Origin: Candidatus Limnocylindria bacterium
Lineage (GTDB): Bacteria > Chloroflexota > Limnocylindria > P2-11E
DNA: 54,964 nucleotides
Reading direction: 5' to 3'
NCBI GenBank assembly: GCA_036523395.1
Contig: DATDEH010000090.1
Coordinates: 1 to 54,964, forward strand
The translations under genes and the position numbers were made by a program. The notes beneath the pieces were generated by a model. That model had not been told where the DNA came from, did not search any database, and worked only from the letters and a program-made list of their open reading frames with translations. Below are positions 8,155 to 32,534 of the stretch, piece by piece (within the stretch, counting starts at the first letter, position 1; each line of letters starts with the position of its first letter).

Positions 8155-8928
8155 TCAGGGCTTCGCGAACAAGTACCCCACACCACGCTTTGTCAGGATG
8201 TACCGCGGCGAGGCCGGGTCGTTCTCGATCTTGCGCCGAAGCCGGCGGATCGCTGTCTGCAGCAGCTCCGTCGCTCCGGAGTAACCGGGCCCCCAAACGT
8301 GTCGCAGCAGCTCATCCTGGACGATGACGCGACCTGCGTTCGCCACGAGCTGCTCGAGTAGGCGGTACTCCCCCGGGCTGAGCTCGACCTCTCGCCCGAG
8401 CAGCGTGACCCTGTGCTGATCGAGGTCGATGTGAAGATCCCCTGCGTCGAATGTCGGACTGAGACTCGCGCCGGGAGCGGCCTCCGTGCGGCGGAGGACG
8501 GCCTCGACGCGGGCGAGGAGCTCGTTCGCGCTGAACGGCTTGGTGATGTAGTCGTCGGCCCCGAGCTTCAGGCCACGGACCTTCTGTTCCTCCTCGGCGC
8601 GAGCGGTCAGCATGATGATGGGCACCGTCGACTGCTCGCGGATGCGCCGACACACTTCATACCCGTCCATGTCGGGCAGCTTCAGGTCCAGTACGACGAG
8701 GTCCAGCTCCTCGCGCTCCACCGCGTTCAGAGCGCTCAGGCCGTCGACGGCCTGAAGCACGCGGTAGCCGCGGCGCGAGAGGTTCATCTCCAGCAGCTCG
8801 CGGTACCTCCGCTCGTCATCGACGACCAGCACCGTCGTCGTTTTCAGTTCGATGCCCCGACCGTCTGGGCCATGGCGACCGGTACGGTGAAGCGGATCGC
8901 GGTCCCCGGCTGGCGACCCAGACGCCAT
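8155..8928 (-). CDS. OmpR/PhoB-family response regulator
   Basis: The receiver domain has VLVVDDE acidic residues, the phospho-acceptor Asp in VVLDLKLPDMDG, and Lys in DDYITKPFS. It is followed by a winged-helix DNA-binding domain ending ILTKRGVGYLF. All phosphotransfer residues are intact, so it should accept phosphate from the kinase just upstream. The start is uncertain: ATG 8928 overlaps the kinase by 85 nt. The receiver proper begins at TTTVLVVDDE, and a GTG at 8832 or a CTG at 8847 beside the kinase stop is possible. It is a candidate binder of the 11-bp direct repeats found downstream and before the benzoyl-CoA genes. Confidence 0.9.
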   Translation of the reverse strand: MASGSPAGDRDPLHRTGRHGPDGRGIELKTTTVLVVDDERRYRELLEMNLSRRGYRVLQAVDGLSALNAVEREELDLVVLDLKLPDMDGYEVCRRIREQSTVPIIMLTARAEEEQKVRGLKLGADDYITKPFSANELLARVEAVLRRTEAAPGASLSPTFDAGDLHIDLDQHRVTLLGREVELSPGEYRLLEQLVANAGRVIVQDELLRHVWGPGYSGATELLQTAIRRLRRKIENDPASPRYILTKRGVGYLFAKP

Positions 8929-11123
8929 TCCACCGGCGGGCTCTCCGCCCAGATCCGGCCTCCATGAGCCTGCACGATGCCTCTGCAGATCGCGAGGCCG
9001 ATCCCAGTGCCGGCGATGCCTCGAGCTCGTGCGACCTGTCCACGATGGAACCGCTCGAAAACACTTTCCAGCTCCTCGGCCTTGATCCCGAGGCCCTCGT
9101 CGAGCACGCTCACGACGATCTCTTTTCCGTGGGCCGTGGCACGCACGGCGATATTGCCGCCCTCCGGCGAGTACTTGATCGCGTTGTCCAGCAGGTTGTA
9201 CAAGACCTGCTCGACGCGACGAGCGTCCGCCCAGATGGGAGGCAGCGTCGAAGGCACGGCCACCACGAAGCGATGGTCCGTCCCGCGTAGCTGGATGCGC
9301 TCGACCGCGGCATGCACGAGCGGTCCCAGCCGGATCGGGACCGGAGACACGCTGAGCGAGCCCGCGCCGATCTTCGTCATGTCCAGCAAGTTGTCGACGA
9401 GCTCCTTGAGCTCGTTGCTCGCGTCGGCGATCACCTCGATGCAGTGCCGCATGGCGACAGTGTCCTTCGGAGCATCGGGCAGCAGGAGGGTCGTGGCGTA
9501 GCCCATGATGAAACCCAGCGGCGTGCGCAGCTCATGCGAGACGGTGGACAGGAACTCTTCCTTGAGGCGGTCCACCTCCGCCTCTGCGGAGATGTCGCGC
9601 AGCACGTGGACGATGCCGGCGACCCGGCCCGTCTGATCGCGGATGGCCGAGCGCGTGATGGCCACGTTCGCCTCGCCGCCGCCCTGCCGGCGCAGGATGG
9701 TCTTGCTCACGCCCAGATCGGGCTGCGCAGACAGCAGCGGACAATCGCGCCGGCAATCGTCGAGCGCCGCGTCGTTCGGGCAGATCACCTCACAACACGG
9801 TCGGCCGAGGACGTCCTCGACGTTCCAGCCGGTCAGTGCCGAGGCCGACGGATTGAACGCGGTGATCCGCAGATCCGGGTCGGTCGTTACGACAGCGTCG
9901 GCCATGGATGACACGATGCCTTCGTATCGGCTCTTCTCCAGAGCCAGGTCCGACAGCGCGCCCTGGAGCTCGCGACGCATGTCGTCGAAGGCCTCGGCCA
10001 GCACGCGCACCTCGCCCTCCCCGTCGCGCGGGACCGGCGTCGAGAGGTCGCCGGCGGCGATCTGGCGGCTGGCGGCCGCGAGCGCAAGGATCGGGCGGGC
10101 AACGCTCCGCGTCGTGAGCCAAACGAGGACCAGCGCCAACCCGAGCGACAGCGTTCCGAAGAGGATGATCTGCTGTTGCCAGCGGCTCGCGTCCGCCGAC
10201 AGCTCCGCGTCCGACCCGCCGATCGCGAGCCCCCACGGGACGCTCCGCAGTGGCACGAAGGCCATGTCGTGGCGCTGGCCCTGGTCCGCGGGATCGACCG
10301 GTCCCACGGGCGCGGTCAATCCAACAGCACTCGCGTGCCCGGCGAGAAGTGGTTCGTAGAAGTCGGGATGCTCGCCCGGGCCCAGTGCGTGCCCGGCCTC
10401 CGACGACGCGACCACGCGATCGTATTGATCGATGAGCTCGGCGTGTCCGGTGTGGGCGAGACCACGCGCGCTCGCCACGAGATCGTGGATCGGGCCTTGA
10501 TCGGGCCGCATCACCAGACCGAGGACTCCGATCGCCTGGCCATCGATCCCAATGACAGGCACGGCAAGAAATGCCGCGACCCGATGCTCGAGAGTGTGGA
10601 CCCCCGATGCGTACCGCGTCCGCGTGGCCAGCGGCGCGAGCAGCGACGGCTGAGAACCGACGTAGTCGGCCCGCAGGCCCGGATCCATGGCCGTAGACCA
10701 GGTGATGGCCCCGTTCCCACCAAGGAAAACGACCCCGCCGACACGTGAGTCTTCTAGGCCGAACGCATCGTCCAGTACCTGCCTTTGCCGCGTCGGGTCC
10801 CCGGACGCTTGGCCGACCAGCATCGCAACGCGCTCGAGTCGACCGAACCGCAGCTCGATGTCGGAGTCGATGAAGCTCGCGGTGGACGTTGCCACGCTGA
10901 GCCACTGCCCGATGGTGCGCTGCTTGCCATCGTCGGCGATCGCGGACCCAAGCATGCCGAACAACGAGAAGATGCCGATGAGGCCGAGGACGACGAATGT
11001 GCCGATCTGCCAGCGCAGGGGAAGGCCGGAGGCGCGTTGACCCAAGGCTCTGATCGCTCGTCCTGCACGTCCGAGGCGGGCCCGTTTGTCGACGCCCCAC
11101 ACCCGGGCTTGAAGACCGTTCAT
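8844..11123 (-). CDS. Membrane sensor histidine kinase (Cache-like sensor, HAMP, PAS, HisKA, HATPase)
   Basis: A 759-residue protein. A first membrane helix lies at about 40-62, then an extracytoplasmic Cache-like sensor (~65-310), a second helix (~313-337), HAMP, and a PAS domain (~400-510). HisKA with SHELRTPLG follows at ~528, then an HATPase with DNAIKYSPEGG and GTGIGLAIC. The PAS domain carries an unusual cysteine cluster (LGRPCCEVICPNDA, then DDCRRDCPLL). Similar Cys-rich PAS insertions are known in other sensors and could bind metal or sense redox state; that is inferred. It is cotranscribed with the downstream regulator, and two small genes precede it. Confidence 0.92.
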   Translation of the reverse strand: MNGLQARVWGVDKRARLGRAGRAIRALGQRASGLPLRWQIGTFVVLGLIGIFSLFGMLGSAIADDGKQRTIGQWLSVATSTASFIDSDIELRFGRLERVAMLVGQASGDPTRQRQVLDDAFGLEDSRVGGVVFLGGNGAITWSTAMDPGLRADYVGSQPSLLAPLATRTRYASGVHTLEHRVAAFLAVPVIGIDGQAIGVLGLVMRPDQGPIHDLVASARGLAHTGHAELIDQYDRVVASSEAGHALGPGEHPDFYEPLLAGHASAVGLTAPVGPVDPADQGQRHDMAFVPLRSVPWGLAIGGSDAELSADASRWQQQIILFGTLSLGLALVLVWLTTRSVARPILALAAASRQIAAGDLSTPVPRDGEGEVRVLAEAFDDMRRELQGALSDLALEKSRYEGIVSSMADAVVTTDPDLRITAFNPSASALTGWNVEDVLGRPCCEVICPNDAALDDCRRDCPLLSAQPDLGVSKTILRRQGGGEANVAITRSAIRDQTGRVAGIVHVLRDISAEAEVDRLKEEFLSTVSHELRTPLGFIMGYATTLLLPDAPKDTVAMRHCIEVIADASNELKELVDNLLDMTKIGAGSLSVSPVPIRLGPLVHAAVERIQLRGTDHRFVVAVPSTLPPIWADARRVEQVLYNLLDNAIKYSPEGGNIAVRATAHGKEIVVSVLDEGLGIKAEELESVFERFHRGQVARARGIAGTGIGLAICRGIVQAHGGRIWAESPPVEWRLGRQPGTAIRFTVPVAMAQTVGASN

Positions 11124-11602: not shown

Positions 11603-11638
11603 CCGGCGATGCTGGTGCGGGCGAGATCGCTCCGTGAA

Positions 11639-11674
11639 GAGCCGAACGGACCACCGGGATGGGCCGGTCCGGCC
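11639..11674. promoter_or_regulatory. Pair of DosR-like dyads between divergent units
   Basis: GAGCCGAACGGACC (11639) and GGGCCGGTCCGGCC (11661) start 22 bp apart, 36-71 nt before the response regulator at 11710 and 37-72 nt before the membrane small protein at 11602. They match the dyad seen at many stress promoters in this window. Confidence 0.4.
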
Positions 11675-11709
11675 CTATTCCGAAGTGTGTCAAAGCTGAG
11701 TCTGGACGC

Positions 11710-12801
11710 ATGCTCGCTGAACCGCCCTTCGTCGTCGTCGCCAGCGACGACCTCGTCGCGCTCACTTCCCAACGGGACGCGCTGCGGGTCGCGGGCGCTC
11801 AGGTCGCTGCCTGTAAACAGGTGAGAGTGGCGCTGGATGCGATCACGTTCCACGTCCCCACGGTCGTCGTGGCCGATGTGGGCATGGACGACGGCCGGGG
11901 TTGGGACGTCGTGCACGCCGCTCGGGCCGCGGGCCGGCTCTCGACCATCGTCCTCGACCGCCGCGGCGACGCGGGCACGCGGCGCGCGGCCTTCTCCGCC
12001 GGCGCCGACGACGTCATCCGCATTCCGTGCGACCTCGATGAGCTCACGACGCGGGTGCTCACGCTGGCCAGCCGCGCTGATCGCGGCGCCGCTGCGACCG
12101 TCCATCGGCTGCACGGACTCACCGTCGACGTTTCGGCGCACGCGGTCCGTCTTCACGGCCGGCCGGTCGTCCTCACGGCACAGCAGTTCGCGATCCTGGC
12201 GGCGCTGTTCGAGGCGAACGGCGTGGCTCTTCCGCGAGAACGACTCCTTGCGCGCATCGAGGCTCTCGATGACGAGCCCCCGTCGGAGCGCGCGATCGAC
12301 CTCCACGTGACTCGTCTGCGTCGCCGTCTCGGCGATGACGCGAAGCAGCCTCGCTACATCGAAGCCGTTTATGGCGTGGGCTACCGTCTGGCGACCGACG
12401 CTCCCGGACCGGCGCAGCTCGGCGACAGCGCGGAGGACGTCCTCGCCGCGCTGCCCGACGCGCTTCTCGTGATCGACGCGCGCCGCATGATCCGCTTCGC
12501 GAACGACGCGGCCGTGCGCCTGTTCGCGCGTCCCCGCACCGAGCTTCTGGGACGGACCTGCGGCGAGCTGCTGCAGTGCACGGACTGCGCGGGCACGTCG
12601 CTCGACGGCCCGCGCTGTTTCGTCCGTGCGCTGCGGCCGGGCACCACCGCACTTCGCGACATGCCCGCGCGGATCCAGGCAGGCGAGGAGCGCGTCCCGG
12701 TATCGCTCACCTACGGACAGGTCCAGGCCGACGGGCTCGTCACGCTACAGCTCCGACCGCGCGCGGAAGAAGATCCGAAGGGGTCGGCCCGCCCAGCCTG
12801 A
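11710..12801 (+). CDS. Response regulator with degenerate receiver, winged helix and C-terminal Cys-rich PAS
   Basis: A 363-residue protein. Residues ~1-115 form a receiver with the acceptor Asp kept (VVVADVGMDD), but the acidic pair is ASDD and the conserved Lys is Arg (VIRIPCD). An OmpR-type winged helix follows (~130-225, ending YIEAVYGVGYRL), then a PAS domain (~235-345) with Cys in LGRTCGELLQCTDC and GPRCFV. DNA-binding domain before PAS is an uncommon order; the PAS may sense ligand or redox state directly. ATG 11710 is chosen because the receiver begins there. It lies immediately before the benzoyl-CoA operon and is its most likely local regulator. Confidence 0.85.
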   Translation: MLAEPPFVVVASDDLVALTSQRDALRVAGAQVAACKQVRVALDAITFHVPTVVVADVGMDDGRGWDVVHAARAAGRLSTIVLDRRGDAGTRRAAFSAGADDVIRIPCDLDELTTRVLTLASRADRGAAATVHRLHGLTVDVSAHAVRLHGRPVVLTAQQFAILAALFEANGVALPRERLLARIEALDDEPPSERAIDLHVTRLRRRLGDDAKQPRYIEAVYGVGYRLATDAPGPAQLGDSAEDVLAALPDALLVIDARRMIRFANDAAVRLFARPRTELLGRTCGELLQCTDCAGTSLDGPRCFVRALRPGTTALRDMPARIQAGEERVPVSLTYGQVQADGLVTLQLRPRAEEDPKGSARPA

Positions 12802-12838: not shown

Positions 12839-13270
12839 ATGCGGACGGTCGCGACCGCCCCTCTCGTCGTCACCCTCGACAGGCCGGATCTCGTGCGCCT
12901 GGGAGAGCTTTCGGCGCGTCTGGGCGCCGACAGCGCGCGGGACTGGTCGGGCCGTCTCGGGCGTTCCGGGACCGTTGCGCTGGGCGCGGAGTCGGATGGC
13001 AGGCTCGTCGCGTACGCGGCCGCCGAGGTGCGCCGATCCTTCGGACGCGCCACGCCAGCCGCGTGGATCGACGCATTCGGCGTCGATCTCGCGTACCGCG
13101 GGCATGGCATCGGACGAACGCTCCTCGCGGAGCTGTTGTCGCGTCTGCGCTCGGAGGGCGCCGATCACGTGTTCACGCTCGTTCCGCTGCATGACCGGAC
13201 GATGGCGCCGTTCTTCCGCGAGCTGGGCTTCCGCGACGAGCCGATCACGCCGCTGGGGAGAGAGCTGTGA
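12839..13270 (+). CDS. GNAT-family N-acetyltransferase
   Basis: A 143-residue single-domain acetyltransferase. The acetyl-CoA pyrophosphate loop is YRGHGIGRTLL (about residue 85), preceded by the strand DAFGVDLAY and followed by HVFTLVPLHD and FFRELGF, the standard GNAT ending. It is the first gene of the benzoyl-CoA unit, and its stop overlaps the bcrC start (GTGA). Lysine acetylation controls acyl-CoA enzymes in other benzoate degraders such as Rhodopseudomonas palustris; a role in modifying pathway enzymes is inferred from position only. Confidence 0.85.
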   Translation: MRTVATAPLVVTLDRPDLVRLGELSARLGADSARDWSGRLGRSGTVALGAESDGRLVAYAAAEVRRSFGRATPAAWIDAFGVDLAYRGHGIGRTLLAELLSRLRSEGADHVFTLVPLHDRTMAPFFRELGFRDEPITPLGREL

Positions 13271-14433
13271 CGCTGGCGACGGCCGCGCCGATCGAGGCCG
13301 TTGAGCGCTACCGCGAGTCCGTCGAAGATCGTGCTTTCCCCACGGTCCGCGAATGGCGCGCTCGCACCGGACGCATGGTCACCGGATGCTTCCCGGTCTA
13401 CGCGCCGGTGGAGCTCGCGTACGCGGCGGGGATGCTGCCTGTCGGTCTCTTCGGCGCGGGTAACCAGATCGAGATGGCGCACGCCGACTCGCGGTTCCAG
13501 TCTTTCATCTGCTCGATCGTGAAGAGCACGCTCGAGCTCGCGTTCGTCGATCGCCTGGCTCCGTTCGACGCGCTCATGTTCGAGTCGATCTGCGACCCCG
13601 CGCGGAATCTCGCGAGCGTGATGGCACGGAACTTCCCGGACCGGCACGTCACCTACGTGCACCTGCCACAGAACATGACTTCGCCCGCGACCGTCGACTA
13701 TCTCGCCGGCGAGTACCGGCGCGCGGCGGACGAGCTTGGCACGGTGAGCGGGCACGTCGTGGGCACGGAGGATCTTCGCTCGGCGATCGGCGCATTCAAC
13801 GGTCTTCGTGCGCGCCTGCGCGAGATCTACCAGCTGCGCGCGTCGTCGCCCGAAAAGATCTCGACCGCCGAGCTCTACACCCTCGCGCGGCTCGCGACGC
13901 TCACCGATCCGGCCGACAGCGAGCCGCTGATCGCCGAAAGCATCGCGACCGCGCGTGCCCGCGAGTCGCGACCGAAGGATCGCGTCCGGGTGGTGCTGGT
14001 CGGCTCGTTCTGCGAGCAGCCGCCGCTCGAGCTCATCACGGCGATCGAGGAGTCCGGCTGCTACATCCTCGACGACGACTTCCTGCTCGGGTGGCGACTC
14101 TTCAAGCGCGACATCGCCGTCGACGGCGATCCGTTCCGTGCGCTCGCGCTCGCGTATCTCGATGGGAGCGTCCACCTCAGCACGAAGCACGACCTGCGCC
14201 AGCCGCGCGCCGCCGCGCTCATCGCGAGCGCGCGAGCTCACCGCGCCGACGCGGTCATCTTCCTCGGCGCGAAGTTCTGCGAGCCGGGGCTCTTCGATTA
14301 CGCCCTCTACCGGAAGGCACTGGAGCAAGAGGCCATCCCGCATCTCTTCCTCGAGTTCGAAGAGAAGATGTGGATGTACGACAAGATCCGAACGGAGGTC
14401 GAGACCTTCGTGGAATCGATGCTGTTCACATGA
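13267..14433 (+). CDS. bcrC: Benzoyl-CoA reductase subunit C (2-hydroxyacyl-CoA dehydratase family)
   Basis: A 388-residue member of the HgdB/BcrB-BcrC family, which carries the [4Fe-4S] clusters and aromatic substrate of the ATP-dependent reductase. Cysteines at family-typical places are visible: MVTGCFPVYAPVE, QSFICSIV, FESICDPARN, VGSFCEQPP and AKFCEPGLFD. The length fits BcrC (~385) and the gene order C-B-A-D matches Thauera and Rhodopseudomonas. The complex reduces benzoyl-CoA to cyclohexa-1,5-diene-1-carbonyl-CoA with two electrons from ferredoxin and two ATP. It is coupled to both neighbours by 4-nt overlaps. A related 2-hydroxyacyl-CoA dehydratase is the alternative, made unlikely by the neighbouring had, dch and hydrolase. 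Confidence 0.88.
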   Translation: MTLATAAPIEAVERYRESVEDRAFPTVREWRARTGRMVTGCFPVYAPVELAYAAGMLPVGLFGAGNQIEMAHADSRFQSFICSIVKSTLELAFVDRLAPFDALMFESICDPARNLASVMARNFPDRHVTYVHLPQNMTSPATVDYLAGEYRRAADELGTVSGHVVGTEDLRSAIGAFNGLRARLREIYQLRASSPEKISTAELYTLARLATLTDPADSEPLIAESIATARARESRPKDRVRVVLVGSFCEQPPLELITAIEESGCYILDDDFLLGWRLFKRDIAVDGDPFRALALAYLDGSVHLSTKHDLRQPRAAALIASARAHRADAVIFLGAKFCEPGLFDYALYRKALEQEAIPHLFLEFEEKMWMYDKIRTEVETFVESMLFT

Positions 14434-15734
14434 CCGAGACAAAGGAGATCCGTTACCAGGGCCACCTGCACGAGCTGCAGAAACAGCTCATGGGCGACTA
14501 CTACGCGCAGCTCACGGCGATCGCTACCGGAAGGTCCGACACCAAGAACGCGCACCTGCTCATCGCCGGCAACCCGGTCGAGCTCGTCCGCGCGTTCGGC
14601 ATGATCCCGGTGTTCCCCGAGGTGAACGTCCTTCAGCTCGCGGTGCGCAAACAGTCGCTGCCGCTCATCCAGAAGGCCGAGGAGCTGGGCTACGCCGTCG
14701 ACAATTGCGCTTACGTGAAGGCCGACGTCGGCCTCTATCTCTCCGGTTATCAGGCGCCGTACGGCACGATCCCGAAGGCCGACCTCCTCCTCTGCAACTA
14801 CGTCGGCTGCAACGTGTACCTCAACTGGTTCGAGCACCTCGCGGAGCTCACCGGCGCGCCCGCGGTGAACATCGACATCCCATTCGTCCGCTCCGCTGAC
14901 GGCGAGCCGTCGCCGGGCGACGTCGACTACGTCGTGAAACAGCTGGAAGAGCTCATCGTCCAGCTCGAGAACATCACCGGCACCTCGCTCGATATGCCCA
15001 GGCTCCGCCGGACCGTGGAGAATTCGGCGCTCGTCGGCGAGATGTGGGCCGAGATCAAGGACCTGACGAAGCGGCGGCCGGCGCCTTATGACGCGTACTT
15101 CGACTCGGTCACGATGATGGCGGTCCTCTACTGCCTTCGCGGCACCGACGAGGCGGTGACCTTCTTCGAGGCCGCGCGCGAGGAGCTCTCGCGGCGCGCG
15201 GCGAAGGGGGAGGGGCCGCTGCCCGAGGAGCGTTTCCGCGTCGTCATCGAAGGCCCGCCGCCGTGGCCGTTCCTGCGCGTGTTCCGTGACATGTTCTCGC
15301 GCTGGGGCGCGGTCGCGGTCGCATCGACCTATTCGACGGTCGGCGGGATCTGGGAGTTCGGTTTCCGTCACGATCCGCAGCGGCCGATCGAGTCGATCGC
15401 GCGACACATGCTGCAGTACAACCTCTGCAACCGGACCTTCCTGCAGCGCTACGACCAGATGGCCCGCTACGTGGACGAGTGGTCCGCCGACGCGGTCGTG
15501 ATCCACTCCGTGAAGAGCTGCCGGCTCTTCTCGGCGGGGCAGGGCGACATGCGCGAGTACTTCGTGCGCGAGCGCGAGGTCCCGACTCTCCTGATCGAGT
15601 CGGACCTCGAGGATCCGCGCTACTTCTCGCAGGCGCAGCTACGCAACCGTATCGACGCGTTCTTCGAGGCGCTCTCGCAGAGGCGCCTCACCGCCGCGTC
15701 CGATGCGCAGCTCGCGGCCGGGGGTGCGCGGTGA
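14430..15734 (+). CDS. bcrB: Benzoyl-CoA reductase subunit B (2-hydroxyacyl-CoA dehydratase family)
   Basis: A 434-residue protein starting [20 protein letters not shown] 14430 overlaps the bcrC stop (ATGA). Family features include [43 protein letters not shown] and a late [20 protein letters not shown], whose cysteines would ligate [4Fe-4S] clusters. With BcrC it forms the catalytic half of the class I benzoyl-CoA reductase. Its length agrees with BcrB/BadE/BzdO. The rest of the enzyme (two ATPase subunits) follows directly. Confidence 0.88.
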
Positions 15735-16531
15735 GGTACTGCGTCGGCGTCGACGTCGGCTCCACCCAGACGAAGGCCGTGCTGCTCGATGAGGATCGCC
15801 GCATCGTCGCGCGCTCGCTCGTCGATACGGGCGCTTATCTGGTGCGCGCTGCCGAGCGCGCGTACGACAAGGCCCTCGCGGAAGCCGGTGTCGTCCGGGG
15901 CGATGTCGGCTACGTGATCGGCACCGGGTATGGACGCTTCAAGGTCGCGTTCGGCGACGACCAGGTCACGGAGATCTCCTGCCACGCCAAAGGGGCGTGG
16001 GCCCTCTACCCGAACACGCGCACCGTCATCGACATCGGCGGGCAGGATACGAAGGCGATCAAGGTGAGCGACCGCGGCGAGGTGCTCGACTTCGCGATGA
16101 ACGACAAGTGCGCGGCGGGCAGCGGGCGGTTCCTCACGAATTCGGCCGAGGCCCTGGGCATGGACGTGAGTGCCATCGGCGCGAAGTCACTCGAGTCGCG
16201 CAACCCGGTCCGGCTCTCGACGGTGTGCACGATCTTCGTCGAGACGGACATCCTCTCGTACCTGGCTTCGGGTAAGAAAGTCGAGGACATCCTCGCCGGC
16301 GTGCACGGCGCCATCGGCTCGCGCACCGTTGCGCTGGTCCGCCGCGTGGGCGCCGAGTCCGAGGTCACGTTCACCGGCGGCGTGGCTCGCAACGTCGGCA
16401 TGATCCGGGCGATCGAGGAGAAGGTCGGCCTCCCCATCAACGTGAGCGCCGACTCGCACTACACCGGCGCGCTCGGTGCGGCGATCTTCGCCGTCGAACG
16501 GATGCTCGCGAGCGCGGAGGTGATGGCATGA
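15731..16531 (+). CDS. bcrA: Benzoyl-CoA reductase ATPase subunit A (BadF/BadG/BcrA/BcrD family)
   Basis: A 266-residue ATPase of the acetate-kinase/HSP70 fold: [35 protein letters not shown], and TFTGGVARN near the C-terminus. Cys in [11 protein letters not shown] and STVCTIFVE are the expected ligands of the [4Fe-4S] cluster bridging the two ATPase subunits. The protein couples ATP hydrolysis to electron transfer into BcrBC. GTG 15731 overlaps the bcrB stop. From memory, Thauera BcrA is much larger (~48 kDa); this length is nearer the Azoarcus BzdP/BzdQ size, so the A/D naming rests on gene order. Confidence 0.85.
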
Positions 16532-17334
16532 CGCCATCGCTCGTCGCCGGTATCGACATGGGCTCCCGGACCGCCAAGGCCGTCCTGCTCGATCCGAGCG
16601 GCGCGATGCTTGGCTCGGGCATCGCCCGCATGCGGCCGGACTTCGCCGGCCTCGCGCGCGACGCCCTCGACCAAGCGATCGCGGTGGCTCACGCGTCGCC
16701 GGAAGACGTCGCATATGTCGCGACGACCGGGATGGGCCGCTACAACGTGCCCTTCCGCGACGTCCAGGTGACCGACATCACGGCGGTCGCGCGCGGCGCA
16801 GCCGAGCTCTTCCCACTCACGCGTTCGATCCTCGACATCGGCGCGCAGAGCACGCGGGCGATGCGCGTGCTGGACGGCGGCCGCGTGAAGGAGTTCCGGA
16901 CGAACGACAAGTGCGCAGCCGGCGCGGGCGGCTTCGCCGAGCGCGCCGCGCGCTATCTCGAGATCAAGCTCGAGGACCTGGGCGCTCTCTCGAACAAGGC
17001 CGACAGCCCGCAGGTCATCTCGTCGGTGTGCGCGGTGTTCGCCGAGTCCGAGATCATCAACCTTGTCACCGCGGGCCAGAGCGTCGAGAACATCGTGCGT
17101 GGAATCCACGACTCGCTCGCGCAGCGGGGGTTCCAGCTGCTCAAGCGGGTCGGTCTCGAGGCCGAGATCACCTTCGTCGGCGGCATGGCGCTACAGGACG
17201 GAATGGTGCGCGCACTCGAGGCCGCGCTCGGCCACGCGGTGAACGTGGCTAGGCAGCCGGAGCTCTGCGCCGCGCTCGGCGCTGCGCTGCTCGCGCGCCA
17301 GCGGCTCGCACGACAGGAAGGGGTGGCAGCATGA
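16528..17334 (+). CDS. bcrD: Benzoyl-CoA reductase ATPase subunit D (BadF/BadG/BcrA/BcrD family)
   Basis: The second ATPase subunit, 268 residues: [60 protein letters not shown] and SSVCAVFAE hold the two Cys expected for its half of the bridging [4Fe-4S] cluster. It forms a heterodimer with BcrA. ATGA overlap links it to bcrA, and its own stop overlaps the hydrolase start. DIGAQST differs from the DIGGQDT loop of the partner; this asymmetry between the two ATPases may matter for nucleotide chemistry. Confidence 0.85.
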
Positions 17335-18317
17335 GTGAGATAAGTGGACGTGACCCGGCGGCGTTCGGCTTCGAGGACATCCGCTACGAGAAGAAGGACT
17401 GGATCGCGACGGTCACGATCAACAGGCCGGACGCGTACAACTCGTATACGACCCGCACGCTGCGCGAGCTGACGGAGGCCTTCACCGACGCGGGCCGCGA
17501 CGACGCCATCGCCGTTCTCGTCGTGACCGGCGCCGGGCTCGACGCGTTCTGCACCGGCGGCGACGTGAAGGAATACGCGCGCGACTACACCCGGAAGCCG
17601 CGCGATTACTGGAAATACATGGGGCACTTCGCGGGCGCGATCGAGGCGCTCAAGAACCTCGGCAAGCCGTCGATCGCGCGCATCAACGGCATGGCGGTCG
17701 GCGGGGGCAACGAGATCAACCTCGCCTGCGACCTCGCCATCGCCGCCGACACCGCGCGGTTCCGCCAGGTCGGCGTGCAGGTGGGCAGCGTCGCCGCGGG
17801 TGGCGCGACGCAGTGGCTCCCGCTGGTCATCGGCGATCGGCGCGCCCGCCAGATGCTCATGACCTGCGAGTGGGTCGACGCGAAGACCGCGCTCGCCTGG
17901 GGACTCGTGAACGAGGTCGTGCCGGTGCCGGAGCTCGACGCTGCCGTCGCGCGCCTCGCGGCGAAGCTCCTCGACACGTTCCCGGAGTGCATGCGCTACA
18001 CGAAGCAGCAGACGAACTTCTGGAAGGACCTCTCGTGGAGCATGACCATCGGGCACGCGCGCGACTGGCTCGCGCTCCACTTCGCGTCGCTGGAGCCATA
18101 CGAGGGCATGACCGCGTTCGCCGAGAAGCGCCGCGCAGACCGTCTCGGCATCCGCGCCCGAGCGCGCGACGGCGGCTCGTCGGAGACGCTCTGGGGACCG
18201 AACGCGCGCGCCTGCCCGTCGTGCGGCGCGAAAGGACTGCCGGACTCGTTCACGTTCTGCGGTGTGTGCGGGTCGTCCCTCGTCGCCAGTCCGGGTGCGG
18301 TCCTTGCCGCGCGCTGA
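17331..18317 (+). CDS. oah: Ring-cleaving 6-oxocyclohex-1-ene-1-carbonyl-CoA hydrolase-like crotonase with C-terminal zinc ribbon
   Basis: Crotonase superfamily, 328 residues. NRPDAYNSYTTRTLREL, DAFCTGGDVKEYARDY, GKPSIARINGMAVGGGNE and FRQVGVQVGSVAAGG resemble the Oah/BamA/BzdY ring hydrolases; some segments also recall BadI. Oah is favoured because Had and Dch, the two preceding enzymes, are encoded nearby. It would hydrolyse the ring to 3-hydroxypimelyl-CoA. Unusually, the C-terminus (about 290-315) adds a zinc ribbon (CPSCG, 11 residues, CGVCG), and the whole is shorter than typical Oah (~377). ATGA overlap with bcrD. Confidence 0.8.
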   Translation: MSEISGRDPAAFGFEDIRYEKKDWIATVTINRPDAYNSYTTRTLRELTEAFTDAGRDDAIAVLVVTGAGLDAFCTGGDVKEYARDYTRKPRDYWKYMGHFAGAIEALKNLGKPSIARINGMAVGGGNEINLACDLAIAADTARFRQVGVQVGSVAAGGATQWLPLVIGDRRARQMLMTCEWVDAKTALAWGLVNEVVPVPELDAAVARLAAKLLDTFPECMRYTKQQTNFWKDLSWSMTIGHARDWLALHFASLEPYEGMTAFAEKRRADRLGIRARARDGGSSETLWGPNARACPSCGAKGLPDSFTFCGVCGSSLVASPGAVLAAR

Positions 18318-19065
18318 GGCCGGCGAACTCACAGGCCGCGTCGCCCTCGTCACGGGTGGATCGCGTGGCATCGGTCGCGCGATCGCGACCGACCTCGCGC
18401 GCGCCGGCGCGGATGTCGTGTTCACCTTCCGCAGCGATAGCGATGGCGCCGCGCTCACGATGCGGGTCATCGAAGCCCGGGGCCGCTGCGCGATCGCGCT
18501 CCGCGCCGACGGCACCGACCGCACCGCGGCCGGGCGCGCGGTCATGGACACCGTCGCGCGCTTCGGCCGCCTGGACATCCTCGTGAACAACGCGGGCATC
18601 AACCGCGACGCGGTCGTGTGGAAGATGGATGACTACGCCTGGGACGACGTCCTCGACGCGGACCTCGGCGCGGCCTTCCGCTTCACGCGCGCCGCGGTGC
18701 CGGCGATGCGCGACAGCGGCGGCGGCCGCATCGTGAACATCGCCTCGATCAACGGACTCCGCGGCAAGTTCGGGCAGTCGAACTACGCGGCCGCGAAGGG
18801 CGGGCTCATCGCGTTCACGAAGTCTGTCGCCCGCGAGGTCGCCGCGTTCGGCATCACCGCGAACGCGGTCGCACCCGGCCTCATCGAGACCGACATGGTC
18901 GCCGCAATGCCCGAGAAGGCGCGTGCCGCCTCGGTGGCGGAGACGGTCGTCGGCCACCTGGGGATACCGGAGGACGTCGCCGCCGCGGTGACGTTCCTCG
19001 CATCGGACCGCGCCCGGCACATCACGGGGACGGTGCTCCAGGTCGACGGAGGGCAGCGGCTCTAG
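18295..19065 (+). CDS. Short-chain dehydrogenase (FabG-like, probable 3-hydroxyacyl-CoA step)
   Basis: Classical SDR of ~256 residues: GGSRGIGRAIA nucleotide loop, DILVNNAGINRD, active-site Ser in NIASINGLRG and the NYAAAKGG Tyr/Lys pair. The C-terminal TGTVLQVDGGQRL is typical of FabG. The start is ambiguous: GTG 18295 or TTG 18304, both overlapping the oah end. Being last in the bcr unit, it could oxidise 3-hydroxypimelyl-CoA in the modified beta-oxidation. It could also be a general acyl reductase; the sequence does not decide. Confidence 0.8.
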   Translation: MRSLPRAEAGELTGRVALVTGGSRGIGRAIATDLARAGADVVFTFRSDSDGAALTMRVIEARGRCAIALRADGTDRTAAGRAVMDTVARFGRLDILVNNAGINRDAVVWKMDDYAWDDVLDADLGAAFRFTRAAVPAMRDSGGGRIVNIASINGLRGKFGQSNYAAAKGGLIAFTKSVAREVAAFGITANAVAPGLIETDMVAAMPEKARAASVAETVVGHLGIPEDVAAAVTFLASDRARHITGTVLQVDGGQRL

Positions 19066-19713: not shown

Positions 19714-20160
19714 ATGCGGATCCTCGACCGCTTCTCCAGCGAGCACGACGTGTTCGTCACGCAACTCGGCGTGATCGAGACGCTCACGCGCACCGGAGCG
19801 GAGGTCGCGAGCGTCGTGGCGGCGATCCGCACCCTCGCCGCACCGCTCCTGGTCCATGCGCAGAACGAGGAGCGCGCGCTGTTCCCGGCTCTCGCATCGT
19901 CGCTCGGCGGCGAGGGCGGTCCGCTCGCGGTCCTAACGGAGGAGCATCGGGTGCTTCACGGTCAGCTCGATCGCCTCACCGGCGATCCGCCGCGCTGGGA
20001 GCTGGTGCAGGTGCTTGACGAATTCGTTCGCCTGCTGCGCGGGCACATCGAGAAGGAAGAGGGCATCCTCTTCCCGGCCGCGTCCCAGCTCATCGATGAC
20101 CCGCGTCTCGAGCGTCTGGACCGTGAGCTGCGCTCGGCGGTCGCGGCGGTCGGCGGATGA
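19714..20160 (+). CDS. Hemerythrin-like (HHE) protein
   Basis: A 148-residue four-helix protein with the diiron ligand pattern of hemerythrin-like HHE proteins: His in SSEHDVF, HAQNEERALFP, EEHRVLHGQ and GHIEKEEGILFP. Such proteins bind O2, NO or iron. It is first in the unit with had and dch; its stop overlaps the had start (ATGA). An O2/NO-scavenging or sensing role would suit oxygen-sensitive benzoyl-CoA reductase, but this is inferred from position. Confidence 0.85.
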   Translation: MRILDRFSSEHDVFVTQLGVIETLTRTGAEVASVVAAIRTLAAPLLVHAQNEERALFPALASSLGGEGGPLAVLTEEHRVLHGQLDRLTGDPPRWELVQVLDEFVRLLRGHIEKEEGILFPAASQLIDDPRLERLDRELRSAVAAVGG

Positions 20161-21233
20161 GCGGGCGCGCGCCGGTTTGGGACCCTGTGGCGGACGAGCT
20201 CGCGACGACGATGCGCGCCGCCGTCTTCAGTGGGCCCGGTCGCGCGCTCGACATGGCGACGATCGCGCGTCCGGAACCCGCGCCCGGCGAGGTGCTCGTG
20301 CGCGTGAGCGCGTGCGGACTCTGCCATAGCGACCTCCATTACCTCGACCATGGCGTGCCGACGTTCAAGACGCCGCCGCTCGTCCTGGGCCATGAGATCT
20401 CCGGCACCGTGGTGCGCGCAGGCTCCGGCGTCGACCCCGCGAAGGTCGGCGCGAGCGTGCTCCTCGCGCCGGTGACGACGTGCGGCGGCTGCGTGCCCTG
20501 CCGGACCGGACGCGAGAACGTCTGCACGGCCCAGCGCATGCTCGGAAATTCCGTCGACGGCGGGTTCGCCGAGTTCGTCACAGCGCCGGCGCGGGACGCG
20601 TTCGGGGTCCCGCCGGAAGTGCCGCTCGAGGAGGCCTGCGTCATCGCGGACGCGATGACGACGGCGTTCCACGCGGTGACGCGCCGCGCGCGCATCAAGG
20701 CCGGCGAGTCGGTGGTCGTCTACGGCTGCGGCGGTCTCGGGCTCTGCGTCGTTCAGGTCTGCGTGCTCGTCGGCGCGCGCGTCATCGCGGTCGACATCGA
20801 TCCGCGCAAGCTCGCGCTCGCGACCGAGCTTGGCGCGTCGGTCGCGATCGACGCGCGTGACGGCGACCCCGCGAAGCGGGTGCGGCGCGAGACCGACGGC
20901 GGCGCGGACGCCGCCATCGAGGCGATCGGCCTGCCGAAGACGCAGGAGCAGGCGCTCGCGTCGTTGCGCACGGGAGGCCGCCTCGTGCTCCTCGGATACT
21001 CGGCCGAGCCGATGGCGCTGCCGGGTGGCCGCGTCACGTATCGCGAGCTCACGGTCATCGGGACGCTGGGCTGCCGTCCGGTGGATTTCCCGGCGGTCCT
21101 CGACCTCGTCCGTCGCGGCAAGCTCCTCCTCGGCCCGCTCGTCACACATCGCTACCCGCTCGACCGGATCAACGAGGGTCTGGACGCGCTGCGTCGCGGA
21201 GAAGGCGTCCGCCACATCGTCGTGTTCCCGTGA
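20157..21233 (+). CDS. had: 6-hydroxycyclohex-1-ene-1-carbonyl-CoA dehydrogenase (zinc MDR family)
   Basis: A 358-residue medium-chain dehydrogenase. Catalytic zinc ligands are Cys in ACGLCHSD and His in LGHEISG; the structural zinc site is CGGCVPCRTGRENVC. The cofactor loop is YGCGGLGLCVVQ, followed by an NAD-type acidic residue (AVDIDPRK). It oxidises the alcohol made by Dch, giving the 6-oxo compound for the ring hydrolase. A generic alcohol dehydrogenase would look similar; the call depends on the direct overlap with dch (GTGA) and the upstream bcr genes. Confidence 0.8.
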   Translation: MSGRAPVWDPVADELATTMRAAVFSGPGRALDMATIARPEPAPGEVLVRVSACGLCHSDLHYLDHGVPTFKTPPLVLGHEISGTVVRAGSGVDPAKVGASVLLAPVTTCGGCVPCRTGRENVCTAQRMLGNSVDGGFAEFVTAPARDAFGVPPEVPLEEACVIADAMTTAFHAVTRRARIKAGESVVVYGCGGLGLCVVQVCVLVGARVIAVDIDPRKLALATELGASVAIDARDGDPAKRVRRETDGGADAAIEAIGLPKTQEQALASLRTGGRLVLLGYSAEPMALPGGRVTYRELTVIGTLGCRPVDFPAVLDLVRRGKLLLGPLVTHRYPLDRINEGLDALRRGEGVRHIVVFP

Positions 21234-22006
21234 GCACGACGCTGCTCACCGGCGTCCGCGTCGAGGTCGACGCAGGCGTGGCTACCCTCACGCTCGACCG
21301 TGCGCCGCTCAATGTCCTCAACATCGCGCTGCTGAGCGAGTTGGAGGTCGCCGTCCGCGATCTGCAGGGCGATCGTGACCTGCGGCTCATCGTCATCCGT
21401 GGCGCGGGACGCGCTTTCTCTGCCGGCGTCGAGGTCGCCGAGCATCTCGGTGGGTATCTGGAGCCCATGCTCGATGCGTTCGATCGCGCGGCGCGCGCGA
21501 TCGTCGAGAGCGAGATCCCCGTGCTCGCCGTCGTGCACGGTCCGGCACTCGGCGGCGCCTGCGAGCTCGTGGCGCTGTGCGACCTCGCGATCGCGGCCGA
21601 GGACGCGAAGCTTGGGACACCCGAGATCACGCTCGGTGTCGTCCCGCCGGTCGGCGCCGTGGTCTTCCCGTCGCTCGTCGGTCGGCAGCGGGCGCGCGCG
21701 CTCGTTCTCACCGGTGAGCTCATCACCGGCGGGCAGGCCGCGGCGTGGGGCCTCATCTGGCGCGCGGTGCCGCCGGAGCGACTCGAGGAGGATGCGAGGG
21801 TCGTGATCGAGGCGTTCCGCGGGCGAAGCGCGGCGAGCCTTCGCCTCGCGAAGCGGACGCTCGCACTGGCGGCGACGCCGCAGCTCCTCGCGGCGATCTC
21901 CGCCGCGGATGCGGAGCAGCGCAGGTGCCTACCCGGACTGGCGGATGCCGACGAGGGGCTGCGCGCTTTCCTGGGGAAGCGTCCTCCGCGCTGGACGCAC
22001 CGCTAG
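21230..22006 (+). CDS. dch: Cyclohexa-1,5-diene-1-carbonyl-CoA hydratase
   Basis: A 258-residue crotonase. The stretch GRAFSAGVEVAEHLGGY with the following MLDAFDRAARAI is the pattern I associate with Dch, distinct from ordinary enoyl-CoA hydratases. The oxyanion-hole segments are AFSAGVEV and ALGGACELVALCD. It hydrates the diene product of benzoyl-CoA reductase. GTG 21230 overlaps the had stop. It ends the second benzoyl-CoA unit; a small minus-strand membrane protein follows convergently. Confidence 0.82.
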   Translation: MSTTLLTGVRVEVDAGVATLTLDRAPLNVLNIALLSELEVAVRDLQGDRDLRLIVIRGAGRAFSAGVEVAEHLGGYLEPMLDAFDRAARAIVESEIPVLAVVHGPALGGACELVALCDLAIAAEDAKLGTPEITLGVVPPVGAVVFPSLVGRQRARALVLTGELITGGQAAAWGLIWRAVPPERLEEDARVVIEAFRGRSAASLRLAKRTLALAATPQLLAAISAADAEQRRCLPGLADADEGLRAFLGKRPPRWTHR

Positions 22007-26085: not shown

Positions 26086-26736
26086 TCAGAAGCGCGGCCG
26101 GCGTTTGGCCACGTACGCGGCAGCCTCGGCCCGGCGTGCCAGGCCGAGCTTGTCGAGGATGCGGCTCACGTAGTTCTTGACGGTCTTCTCGGACAGGAAG
26201 AGCAACTCGCCGATCTCGCGGTTCGTCTTTCCCTCCGCCAGCTGCTCCAGCACCTTGCGCTCCTGGTCTGTCAGCGACGCGAACGCCGGATCCTCATCGC
26301 CGCGGCCGCGGCGCACGCGCTCGAGCACCTTGCCCGTGACATCCGGATCCAGGAGCGAGCGTCCCTGTGCGACGGCGGTGATCGCGTCGATCACCGCCTG
26401 GCCGCGCGTCTGTTTGAGGAGGTACCCGGCGGCCCCCGCCACGATGGAGGCGAAGAGGGCTTCGTCGTCGGCGTACGAGGTGAGCATGACGACCTTCGTC
26501 TCGGGTCGCGCCTCGCGGATCGTCCGGCACGCTTCCACACCGCTTCCGTCGGGGAGGCGAACGTCCATGATGATGACGTCGGGCTTGGCCTTCGCCGCCA
26601 TCGCGATCGCCTCGGCGGTCGTGCCGGCCTCGGCAACGACGAGCATCTCCTTGTGGCGTCCGATCAGCGTGCGGAGGCCTTCGCGCACCACCTCGTGATC
26701 GTCGACGAGCATGACCCGAACCTGCGCATCGCTCAT
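26086..26736 (-). CDS. DosR/DevR-like NarL-family response regulator
   Basis: A 216-residue protein. The receiver has MLVDDHEVVREGL, acceptor Asp in IIMDVRLPDGSG, and Lys in GYLLKQTRG. The C-terminal LuxR-type helix-turn-helix is very close to mycobacterial DosR as I recall it: GRSLLDPDVT, LTDQERKVLEQLAEG and the recognition helix SEKTVKNYVSR. The near-identical recognition helix predicts a related DNA site. Its start overlaps the kinase stop by 4 nt. It is the proposed binder of the 14-bp dyads described throughout the window. Confidence 0.9.
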   Translation of the reverse strand: MSDAQVRVMLVDDHEVVREGLRTLIGRHKEMLVVAEAGTTAEAIAMAAKAKPDVIIMDVRLPDGSGVEACRTIREARPETKVVMLTSYADDEALFASIVAGAAGYLLKQTRGQAVIDAITAVAQGRSLLDPDVTGKVLERVRRGRGDEDPAFASLTDQERKVLEQLAEGKTNREIGELLFLSEKTVKNYVSRILDKLGLARRAEAAAYVAKRRPRF

Positions 26737-28148
26737 TCCGTCTCCCTCTCCGTCGCCGGCAGCTCAAAGCGTACTCGCGCACCGCGTCCGGGCTGGCTCT
26801 CCACCCGAAGGGTGCCACCGACCGCGAACGCTCGCTCACGCATGTTGTGCAGCCCGTGGCCGCTCGTGCTGGCCGCGAAGTCGAACCCCACGCCATCATC
26901 CGCGATCTGCAGCACGACACCACCGTTCTCGTCGAACAGGCGCACCGACGCGTGACGCGCGCGCGCGTGGCGCGCGATGTTCCCGAGCGCATCCGCGGCG
27001 ATGTAATACGCGGCCTCCTGGCGCGGCTGGTCCAAGCGCCCAGCGGCCCCAGCCGAGATCTGCACGTCCACGTCGATGAGCGCGTTCGAACGCGCCTGCT
27101 CCGCAAGGAGCGGCAACGATTCCGTCAGTGGCTGGTCGCTCGCCTGCACCTGCCGCAGGCCCAGCACGTACCCACGGAGATCCGCGATCGCTGCGTTCAG
27201 TCGATCGACCGAACGCCTGAGCTCATCCTTCGCCTTCACAGGCTCGGTGTCCACGCGTTCGGCGATGTCTTCGAGGAGCAGGCCGACGCCGTACAGGGAC
27301 TGCATCACGCCGTCGTGGAGGTCCATACGGATGCGCTGGCGCTCCTCGAGTACGGATATGCGCTCCGCCTGCTCGTAGAGACGGGCGTTCTCGATCGCGA
27401 TCGCTGCCTGCGCGGCGAGCGTCTCGAGGGCTTCGGCGTCGTCGACGGTGAATTCCTCCGCGCCCTGCTTCTCGGTGAGATAGAGGTTGCCGAGCGGCTC
27501 TCCACGAAGGACGATCGGCGTTCCCAGGAAGCTACGCATCGGAGGGTGGTTCTTCGGAAAGCCGATCGATGCGGGGTGCTCGTGGAGGTCGCGGAGGAGA
27601 AGTGGCTTTCGCTCCTGTTGCAGGTGTCCGATGAGGCCCAGGCCCCGGGGCAAAGGCCCGATGCGCGCACGCTCTTCCTGCGAGATGCCCGACGTCGTGA
27701 ACGTCTCGACGGTCCCCTCATCGTTGAAGACACCCAGCGCGGCGTACTTCGCATTCGCGACCGCGCGAGCTTGGTCCGCGACGCGCTGTAGCACTTCGTT
27801 GCGGTCGAGCTCCGACGTGAGTGCGAGGCCGGCGGCGTTCACGGCCTGCAGCTGAAGGCGCCTCTGCTCGAGCGCGTCGGCCAGCTGGCGCAGCCGGTCC
27901 GTGTTCGCGCGATCGCGTCCCTGAAGGCTCGCGAGCTGCCCGAAGATCACCGCCGAGAAGGCAAGGACGCCGGCGACGCCGACGATCGTCGTCACCAGGT
28001 GCGAGATGCCCCTGGGGAAAAGCCGCTCGGCGAGGAAGTAGTCGAGCGCCATGAGCGCCGCGATGAGGAGCGAGGGAAGGACGACCGCCGCGATCCGGAG
28101 CCGCCGTGAGTACGTGGCGTTGGTGGCGCGGGCTCGTGACTTGCTCAC
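26733..28148 (-). CDS. DosS/DevS-like GAF histidine kinase
   Basis: A 471-residue protein. Two N-terminal membrane helices (~20-70) are followed by a GAF domain (~110-265) with the DosS-type string EHPASIGFPKNHPPMRSFLG and GNLYLTEKQGAEEFT. A HisKA_3 domain follows with the phospho-His in IRMDLHDGVMQSLYG, then an HATPase. In mycobacteria the homologous GAF binds haem and senses O2/NO/CO. The haem ligand cannot be assigned here from sequence alone, and only one GAF is present instead of two. It overlaps the DosR-like gene and follows a pseudo-receiver gene by 8 nt. Confidence 0.88.
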   Translation of the reverse strand: MSKSRARATNATYSRRLRIAAVVLPSLLIAALMALDYFLAERLFPRGISHLVTTIVGVAGVLAFSAVIFGQLASLQGRDRANTDRLRQLADALEQRRLQLQAVNAAGLALTSELDRNEVLQRVADQARAVANAKYAALGVFNDEGTVETFTTSGISQEERARIGPLPRGLGLIGHLQQERKPLLLRDLHEHPASIGFPKNHPPMRSFLGTPIVLRGEPLGNLYLTEKQGAEEFTVDDAEALETLAAQAAIAIENARLYEQAERISVLEERQRIRMDLHDGVMQSLYGVGLLLEDIAERVDTEPVKAKDELRRSVDRLNAAIADLRGYVLGLRQVQASDQPLTESLPLLAEQARSNALIDVDVQISAGAAGRLDQPRQEAAYYIAADALGNIARHARARHASVRLFDENGGVVLQIADDGVGFDFAASTSGHGLHNMRERAFAVGGTLRVESQPGRGARVRFELPATERETE

Positions 28149-31137: not shown

Positions 31138-31764
31138 TCACTCGAGAAGCCCATGCCCGAGCGCGTACTCGACGAGCTCCGAGCGGCGGTGCAGGTCGAG
31201 CTTCGCCATGATCCGCGAGCGGTAGGTGTCCACCGTTTTCGGGCTGACGAACAGGCGCTCGGCGATCTCGAGGTTCGAGAAGCCGCGGGCGGTGAAGCGC
31301 AGCACCTCACGCTCTCGCGGCGACAGGGCGGGCTCGGAGCGGCCGTTCTCGTTCTGTTGAGTGGCGAGAAGGAGCCGAACAGCAGCGGGCGTGAGATAGG
31401 CATCTCCGGCCGCAACGGCGCGTATCGCGTCGATGAGCTCCTTGTCCGCGGCGCGCTTCAGAACATACCCGGCCGCACCGAGCCGAACCGCCTCCATGAC
31501 GTACCGGTCCTCTGCGTACATGGTCAGGATCACGATCTTGGTCGGCAGCTCCATCTCGCGGACGCGCCGCGCGACCTCGAGCCCGCCGCCGGGCATCGAG
31601 ATGTCGAGCACGAGCACGTCCGGGCGATGACTGCGAGCGGCCTCGATCGCCGATGTCGCATCGGTGGCCGTCGCGACCACCTCCATGTCACCCTTTGACT
31701 CGATGAGTCGTTTGAGTCCGGCCAGCAGGATCTGGTGGTCGTCAGCGAGCACGATGCGGATCAT
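31138..31764 (-). CDS. NarL/LuxR-family response regulator
   Basis: A 208-residue protein with receiver residues VLADDHQILLAGL, acceptor Asp in LVLDISMPGGG, and Lys in GYVLKRAADK. The LuxR-type helix-turn-helix is LSPREREVLRFTARG ... VSPKTVDTYRSR. The recognition helix differs from that of the DosR-like protein (PKTVDTYRSR versus EKTVKNYVSR), so a different site is expected. It overlaps its cognate kinase by 4 nt and is followed by the four-cysteine and GerMN genes. Confidence 0.9.
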   Translation of the reverse strand: MIRIVLADDHQILLAGLKRLIESKGDMEVVATATDATSAIEAARSHRPDVLVLDISMPGGGLEVARRVREMELPTKIVILTMYAEDRYVMEAVRLGAAGYVLKRAADKELIDAIRAVAAGDAYLTPAAVRLLLATQQNENGRSEPALSPREREVLRFTARGFSNLEIAERLFVSPKTVDTYRSRIMAKLDLHRRSELVEYALGHGLLE

Positions 31765-32534
31765 GTGAACGCCTCCTCGCGAAGCGGGACCGAGGCGCGA
31801 ACGCGCGTACCACTGTCCGGATCGGAGTCGATCTCGAGGCTGCCGCCAACGAGGGCGATGCGCTCGGCCATTCCGAAGAGACCGATGCTGGCCGAGGGCC
31901 GCTGCTGCGCCTGCGCGACGGCGAAACCCCTTCCGTCATCGGCGACGGACAGCTCGAGCGAGCCGCCATCCATCTTGAGGTTGACCTCGACGCGCGTCGC
32001 GCGTGCGTGACGCACGACGTTCGTGAGCGCCTCCTGGGCGACGCGGAAGATCGCGACTGCCACCACGGGAGACGCGTGCCCGGACTCGCAGTCCAGCCGC
32101 ACGTCCACAGCGAGACCGGTCTCGGCCCGGACACGGTCGGTCAGCCATTCGAGCGCGGAGCACAGCCCGAGGTCGTCGAGCACGCTCGGGCCGAGCTGCA
32201 CCGCAAGACGGCGCACGCCGTCGAGCGTCTCCCCGACGAGCTCGCGCAGCTCAGCGAGCTCCCGGCGGATCTCGGTCTCGGACGACATGTTCTCGACGAG
32301 CTGCAACCGCACCAGGAGCAGCGTCAGCGCCTGGCCAGTGTCGTCGTGGAGCTCACGCGACACTCGCAGACGCTCCGCCTCTTGCGCGTCGAGGATGCGC
32401 GCGGCGAGCGCGCGAGCGCCGACGCGATAGGCCTCGAGCTCGGCCACCTGCTGCGTCACGGTTGCGACCGTAGGCCCGTCGTTTCCCGCGGAAACCGGCC
32501 GCTCGGCCCGTTTTGCCACGCCGTTGGTCCCCAT
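31761..32534 (-). CDS. Soluble NarX-type histidine kinase
   Basis: A 257-residue protein with no membrane helix and no recognisable sensor domain. A short helical N-terminus (~25-55) leads to HisKA_3 with the phospho-His in VSRELHDDTGQALT and an HATPase with EALTNVVRHARA and GLFGMAERIALVGG. The regulator it should phosphorylate follows with an ATGA overlap. Input must come from a partner; the EVE-like gene 12 nt upstream and the four-cysteine protein downstream are the obvious candidates. Confidence 0.85.
   Translation of the reverse strand: MGTNGVAKRAERPVSAGNDGPTVATVTQQVAELEAYRVGARALAARILDAQEAERLRVSRELHDDTGQALTLLLVRLQLVENMSSETEIRRELAELRELVGETLDGVRRLAVQLGPSVLDDLGLCSALEWLTDRVRAETGLAVDVRLDCESGHASPVVAVAIFRVAQEALTNVVRHARATRVEVNLKMDGGSLELSVADDGRGFAVAQAQQRPSASIGLFGMAERIALVGGSLEIDSDPDSGTRVRASVPLREEAFT

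Follow-up and report, generated by a model that had tools for sequence, protein, structure and literature searches.

Atypical response regulators, or pseudo-receivers, are those that lack one or more of the five residues normally conserved in receivers, and the review that defines them calls their switching mechanisms a mystery (PMC12632262). RitR of Streptococcus is an atypical member of the OmpR family in which phospho-switching has been lost and cysteine chemistry has been proposed instead (PMC5965902). In Azoarcus, three cysteines of AccS place an anaerobic benzoate-degradation promoter under redox control; these cysteines sit in the core of a histidine kinase, which acts by phosphorylating AccR (PMC6456745). 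Finally, OsdR is the Streptomyces counterpart of mycobacterial DevR and binds the published palindrome AGGGCCGATCGGCCCT (PMC5069765), and DevR targets carry one, two or more boxes, cooperative binding being needed (PMC3029386).

The regulator described here resembles RitR in its mode and AccS in its role but is a member of neither. RitR has an aspartate-less receiver, a single redox cysteine (Cys128) and no PAS domain, whereas this protein carries three conserved cysteines in a C-terminal PAS sensor, and AccS, as a kinase, differs in the way it acts. Likewise, the extra C-terminal PAS sets it apart from the pseudo-receivers of the review, in which a word search returned no PAS example (PMC12632262). 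In the window, that is the whole stretch of 54,964 nucleotides that was analysed, the gene and its domains are placed as follows.

11710..12801, plus strand: gene of the pseudo-receiver / OmpR-type winged helix / Cys-PAS regulator, 363 aa
11731..12057, plus strand: receiver domain, residues 8-116 (Pfam; alignments)
12157..12390, plus strand: Trans_reg_C winged helix, residues 150-227 (Pfam; PDB matches)
12427..12765, plus strand: PAS domain, residues 240-352 (Pfam, AlphaFold2, fold search)

By searching the product against Pfam, we found, from the N- to the C-terminus, Response_reg (40 bits for a cut-off of 30.2), Trans_reg_C (68.8 bits for a cut-off of 26.2) and PAS_4, PAS and PAS_8 (32.1, 27.1 and 26.3 bits, each above its cut-off), which is the order that a sequence-only reading of this open reading frame had proposed and had suggested looking up in domain databases. 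With its Trans_reg_C winged helix behind the receiver, also recovered by PDB matches, the protein has the OmpR/PhoB layout, and the RitR structures 5u8m and 5vfa are among its fold matches. The same domain order was found in six relatives, receiver and PAS being weaker in some of them, and in the homologue of genome G188 these two matches fall below the Pfam cut-off. In the open-access literature we found no description of the receiver-winged helix-PAS architecture, absence there being weak evidence.

The AlphaFold2 model of the protein shows a receiver and a winged helix, with a PAS topology spanning residues ~241-350. The PAS topology also appears in a second model, of the PAS alone, which reached a pLDDT of 82 and a pTM of 0.75; the placement of the PAS relative to the rest of the protein is unreliable (pTM 0.42). 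The best PDB fold matches of the PAS model are the PAS domains of NtrB, PpsR, EcDOS, NifL and MmoS, so that sequence signature and fold are both present. The sequence-only reading had staked itself on a PAS fold at residues ~235-345, and the models and PDB matches did place one there. A longer reading of the frame begins at 11659. Since the closest relative starts, in the alignment, beside residue 1 and since both promoter boxes described below lie in or just before this extension, 11710 is the likely start.

To characterize the receiver, we compared it with KdpE, PrrA and eight homologues, the nine-protein set (query included) coming from Chloroflexota MAGs. The active site reads S12, D13, D56, D83 at the Thr/Ser position, V102 at the Tyr position and I105 at the Lys position. 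The phospho-acceptor Asp56, which the sequence-only reading had passed over, is present, which rules out an aspartate-less receiver (ALR) here, and the two acidic residues, Asp, Thr/Ser and Lys that make a functional phospho-active site are not all there. The same is true of the whole set: no receiver out of nine has the full five-residue site. Lys is missing from every one, Thr/Ser from eight and part of the acidic pair from four. Asp itself is kept in six and replaced in three, the closest relative (63% identity) having Arg there and two distant homologues Asn. The published definition (PMC12632262) fits this receiver, which is thus a pseudo-receiver; it is probably unable to do normal phospho-switching and would serve as a dimerisation module. 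The claim that Lys and the acidic pair had gone was therefore right for Lys (Ile105) and half right for the pair, Ser12 marking the loss and Asp13 being kept.

Could the protein nevertheless be controlled by phosphorylation, through the kinase encoded at 8844-11123 (minus strand) or another one, with a PAS that merely modulates? Asp56 and Asp13 are retained here, and Asp56 in six of the nine proteins, so that acyl-phosphate or a kinase could act on it; moreover, the gene of that kinase, which has a cysteine-rich PAS, lies 0.6 kb away. However, the losses of Lys and Thr/Ser and the Arg and Asn substitutions just described argue against such control, the kinase has a canonical regulator of its own at 8155-8832, and the histidine kinase/response regulator pair (8155-11123, minus strand) is not adjacent to the regulator in relatives. 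We consider this explanation quite unlikely. Action without phosphorylation, as first proposed, is likely given nine pseudo-receivers out of nine and the three Asp replacements.

The PAS domain holds a cysteine cluster.

12559..12618, plus strand: cysteine cluster C284-x5-C290-(x2-C293)-x9-C303 (nine-sequence alignment)

Cys284, Cys290 and Cys303 are invariant in all nine homologues, whose PAS identity to the regulator goes from 56% down to 23%. From residue 240 on, only eight positions out of 124 are invariant, namely these three and V254, D256, N265, A268 and R349. The three cysteines are spaced C-x5-C-x(9-12)-C across homologues. In contrast, C293 occurs in two of the nine sequences (the regulator and one relative), and the receiver cysteines C35 and C107 are not conserved. 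Thus, the cluster noticed at first does consist of four cysteines in this PAS (284, 290, 293 and 303) but is not conserved as a set of four. The alignment shows strong constraint on the cysteines of the PAS.

Several known sensor types were considered for this domain. First, LOV photoreceptors have the signature GxNCRFLQ around the reactive cysteine; the motif is absent from the regulator, which reads GRTCGELLQC, and this type was rejected. Second, residues 240-363 are devoid of His, which makes a His-ligated heme unlikely, and the FixL/DOS type was rejected for want of a proximal histidine. Third, the [4Fe-4S] PAS of NreB has four cysteines, C-x2-C-x11-C-x2-C, whereas the regulator has three invariant ones with another spacing, so that it does not qualify as an NreB-type PAS. 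The regulator shares the PAS fold with NifL, MmoS (both among its fold matches) and NreB, but to our knowledge PAS domains of these types belong to kinase sensors or anti-activators, none being fused behind a winged helix. With one conserved cysteine fewer than a classical four-Cys site, the domain could act as a thiol switch or hold either zinc or, given a fourth ligand, an Fe-S cluster. The PAS of the neighbouring histidine kinase (8844-11123, minus strand) has its own cysteine cluster, GRPCCEVICPNDAALDDCRRDCPL; a kinship between the two PAS domains was discarded, their similarity being weak (E 0.0017).

Adjacency to a benzoyl-CoA unit was also part of the sequence-only reading. The regulator gene is in fact the first of the operon, and this linkage is conserved in relatives. 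The genes that follow are listed here.

12839..13270, plus strand: GNAT acetyltransferase, always the next gene, between regulator and bcrC
13267..14433, plus strand: benzoyl-CoA reductase subunit C-like (HGD-D)
14430..15734, plus strand: benzoyl-CoA reductase subunit B-like (HGD-D)
15731..16531, plus strand: activase subunit (BcrA/D-like)
16528..17334, plus strand: activase subunit (BcrD-like)
17331..18317, plus strand: 6-oxocyclohex-1-ene-1-carbonyl-CoA hydrolase-like crotonase
18295..19065, plus strand: SDR dehydrogenase
20187..21233, plus strand: 6-hydroxycyclohex-1-ene-1-carbonyl-CoA dehydrogenase-like
21230..22006, plus strand: enoyl/dienoyl-CoA hydratase-like

Bcr C and Bcr B were the best-matching models, with 303 and 309 bits, below the curated equivalog cut-offs of 421 and 487. 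By these matches the class I Bcr models come nearest to the enzymes, which stay below equivalog level, and the later Had-/Oah-like genes fit ring degradation. The operon also includes a hemerythrin-domain protein (19714-20160, plus strand), which several relatives keep.

Eight of 101 related genomes have bcrB, and a close homologue of the regulator was found in six of these eight but in no genome of the remaining 93; a class-wide search for homologues returned the same six only. In all six family orthologues, the regulator gene immediately precedes, in the same orientation, GNAT-bcrC-bcrB-bcrA/bcrD-oah-like crotonase-SDR, one of the six contigs stopping before the last operon genes. As for the two exceptions, the contig of G009 ends before the position of the regulator gene, and G012 has a bcr operon without the regulator, a glutamyl-tRNA-reductase-like gene lying upstream instead. 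The distant genome G188, which lies outside the class, repeats the arrangement: its bcr operon (BcrB 67% identical) begins with a regulator of this kind, in which Asn replaces Asp.

This strict linkage could mean that the PAS binds an aromatic effector such as benzoate, benzoyl-CoA or a ring-reduction intermediate, the cysteines being structural, for instance in a zinc knuckle, and the protein a substrate-responsive activator or repressor. Substrate-responsive regulators of this pathway are known, an example being MbdR with 3-methylbenzoyl-CoA (PMC4424350). However, the five invariant PAS residues other than cysteines amount to no pathway-specific pocket conservation, and a PAS of ~110 residues would be small for a CoA thioester. 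Moreover, a homologue occurs in G326, where bcrB was not found (the genome is 74% complete), so that the regulator family does not seem exclusively tied to benzoyl-CoA. Nothing specific favours binding of an aromatic ligand, and we regard this alternative as unlikely. Redox/oxygen or metal sensing by the PAS would fit the cysteines and the neighbouring genes, and it is this sensing that we infer.

G326 has two regulator homologues, one of them beside an SDR fusion similar to the one that directly follows the Cys-PAS regulator gene in G188. In these fusions a receiver-winged helix is joined in frame to a short-chain dehydrogenase (L064, 13591-15096, minus strand; L110, 8397-9989, plus strand), that is an enzyme joined to a transcription factor, and each adjoins a receiver-winged helix-CysPAS gene. 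The fusion has 502 codons in G188 and is incomplete at the contig end in G326. The second G326 homologue has a hemerythrin-like gene on one side and, on the other, a response regulator with a Crp/Fnr-type gene after it; this cluster (L111, 1-3792) suggests that oxygen or redox is a theme of the regulator family.

We then searched for a conserved motif upstream of the regulator. In five sequences, a motif scored 70.2, compared to 58.0 ± 2.0 in shuffled controls (0 out of 40 as high), with its strongest self-repeat at 22 bp. An operator of the regulator's own, of the direct-repeat OmpR type, was considered and rejected: the motif is a palindrome and agrees with the OsdR/DevR consensus from the literature, the OsdR palindrome given above, and it was therefore reassigned to DevR. 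The boxes and the genes that would act through them, which the sequence-only reading did not mention, are the following.

11638..11653, no strand: DevR/OsdR-type box AGAGCCGAACGGACCA, 9.1 bits with the OsdR matrix
11661..11676, no strand: DevR/OsdR-type box GGGCCGGTCCGGCCCT, 9.7 bits, ~22-23 bp downstream of the first
26086..26736, minus strand: orthologue of DevR (DosR) that may bind the boxes (M. tuberculosis DevR is its best PDB match, E 3e-58)
26733..28148, minus strand: DevS-type GAF histidine kinase (GAF against the DevS heme GAF, E 6e-38)

The matrix was built from the ten OsdR sequences quoted in PMC5069765, none of which comes from these genomes. It found 16 sites of at least 9 bits in the window, 10 of them within 200 bp upstream of genes, although such regions make up 8% of the sequence (binomial P ~6e-8); column-permuted matrices gave at most 4 promoter sites. 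These sites precede genes for a multicopper oxidase, a universal stress protein, a pyruvate:ferredoxin oxidoreductase-like protein and citrate synthase, and the bcr operon has two, as expected for a DevR regulon member. At the same place in relatives, the best sites score 20.0 bits in G001, 13.8 in G017, 11.6 in G006 and 9.1 in G015; the box of G011 is weak (5.2 bits), and the matrix scan found no good site upstream in G188 or G012. The DevS-type kinase keeps the His of its HPPMR motif. A paired-motif pattern search of eight genomes gave matches mostly near control levels, and no regulon was defined from it. The locus thus shares with the DevR/DosR and OsdR regulons a 16-bp palindrome, several boxes per promoter and orthologues of both DevR and DevS (PMC5069765, PMC3029386). 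In the literature searched, we did not find a benzoyl-CoA operon under DevR/OsdR boxes in Chloroflexota. Beyond this promoter, the window carries at 22281-53592 a putative DevR/DosR-type dormancy regulon of a Chloroflexota MAG, comprising the DevR and DevS orthologues, a second HisKA_3/LuxR pair at 31138-32534 (minus strand) and the matrix sites before the multicopper oxidase, universal stress protein, pyruvate:ferredoxin oxidoreductase-like and citrate synthase genes.

With DevR/OsdR boxes in the promoter and DevSR encoded on the same contig, oxygen could control the operon without acting through the PAS. A further alternative is that receiver and PAS have decayed, leaving a constitutive DNA-binding protein and an oxygen control that is wholly DevSR. 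The degenerate receiver, the conserved boxes and the operon without regulator gene in G012 are all compatible with such decay, but very diverged proteins, with PAS identities of 23-56%, still have the PAS fold and all three cysteines, something that decay does not permit, and we hold it to be improbable.

Taking these observations together, our main reading, with a probability of roughly 0.55, is that the protein is an atypical, phosphorylation-independent OmpR/PhoB-family transcription factor with a cysteine PAS, which acts locally on a class-I-type benzoyl-CoA reductase operon and is in turn subject to hypoxia control of the DevSR type. Hypoxia would activate DevSR, and DevR would bind the two boxes and switch on the enzyme genes along with the regulator gene, which comes first in the operon and would so be co-expressed with them. 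The three-cysteine PAS would take the place of the kinase input and, by means of a thiol switch or a cysteine-held metal or Fe-S centre, let redox state or oxygen tune how the winged helix binds DNA. Depending on this signal, the PAS would hold the regulator in or out of its DNA-binding form; the protein may regulate its own operon and provide a second check on redox state or oxygen in the cell before or during synthesis of an oxygen-sensitive reductase. More tentatively, it might belong to a new family of one-component-like oxygen/redox sensors, in which an Fe-S or metal-bearing three-Cys PAS gates the bcr operon on top of DevSR.

The regulator's own PAS is here a likely answer to the open question of what switches pseudo-receiver regulators; as this likely switch is built into the same protein, it is directly testable. 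More broadly, these data suggest that in an uncultured lineage of Chloroflexota the anaerobic breakdown of aromatic compounds is coupled to a dormancy regulon of the mycobacterial type.
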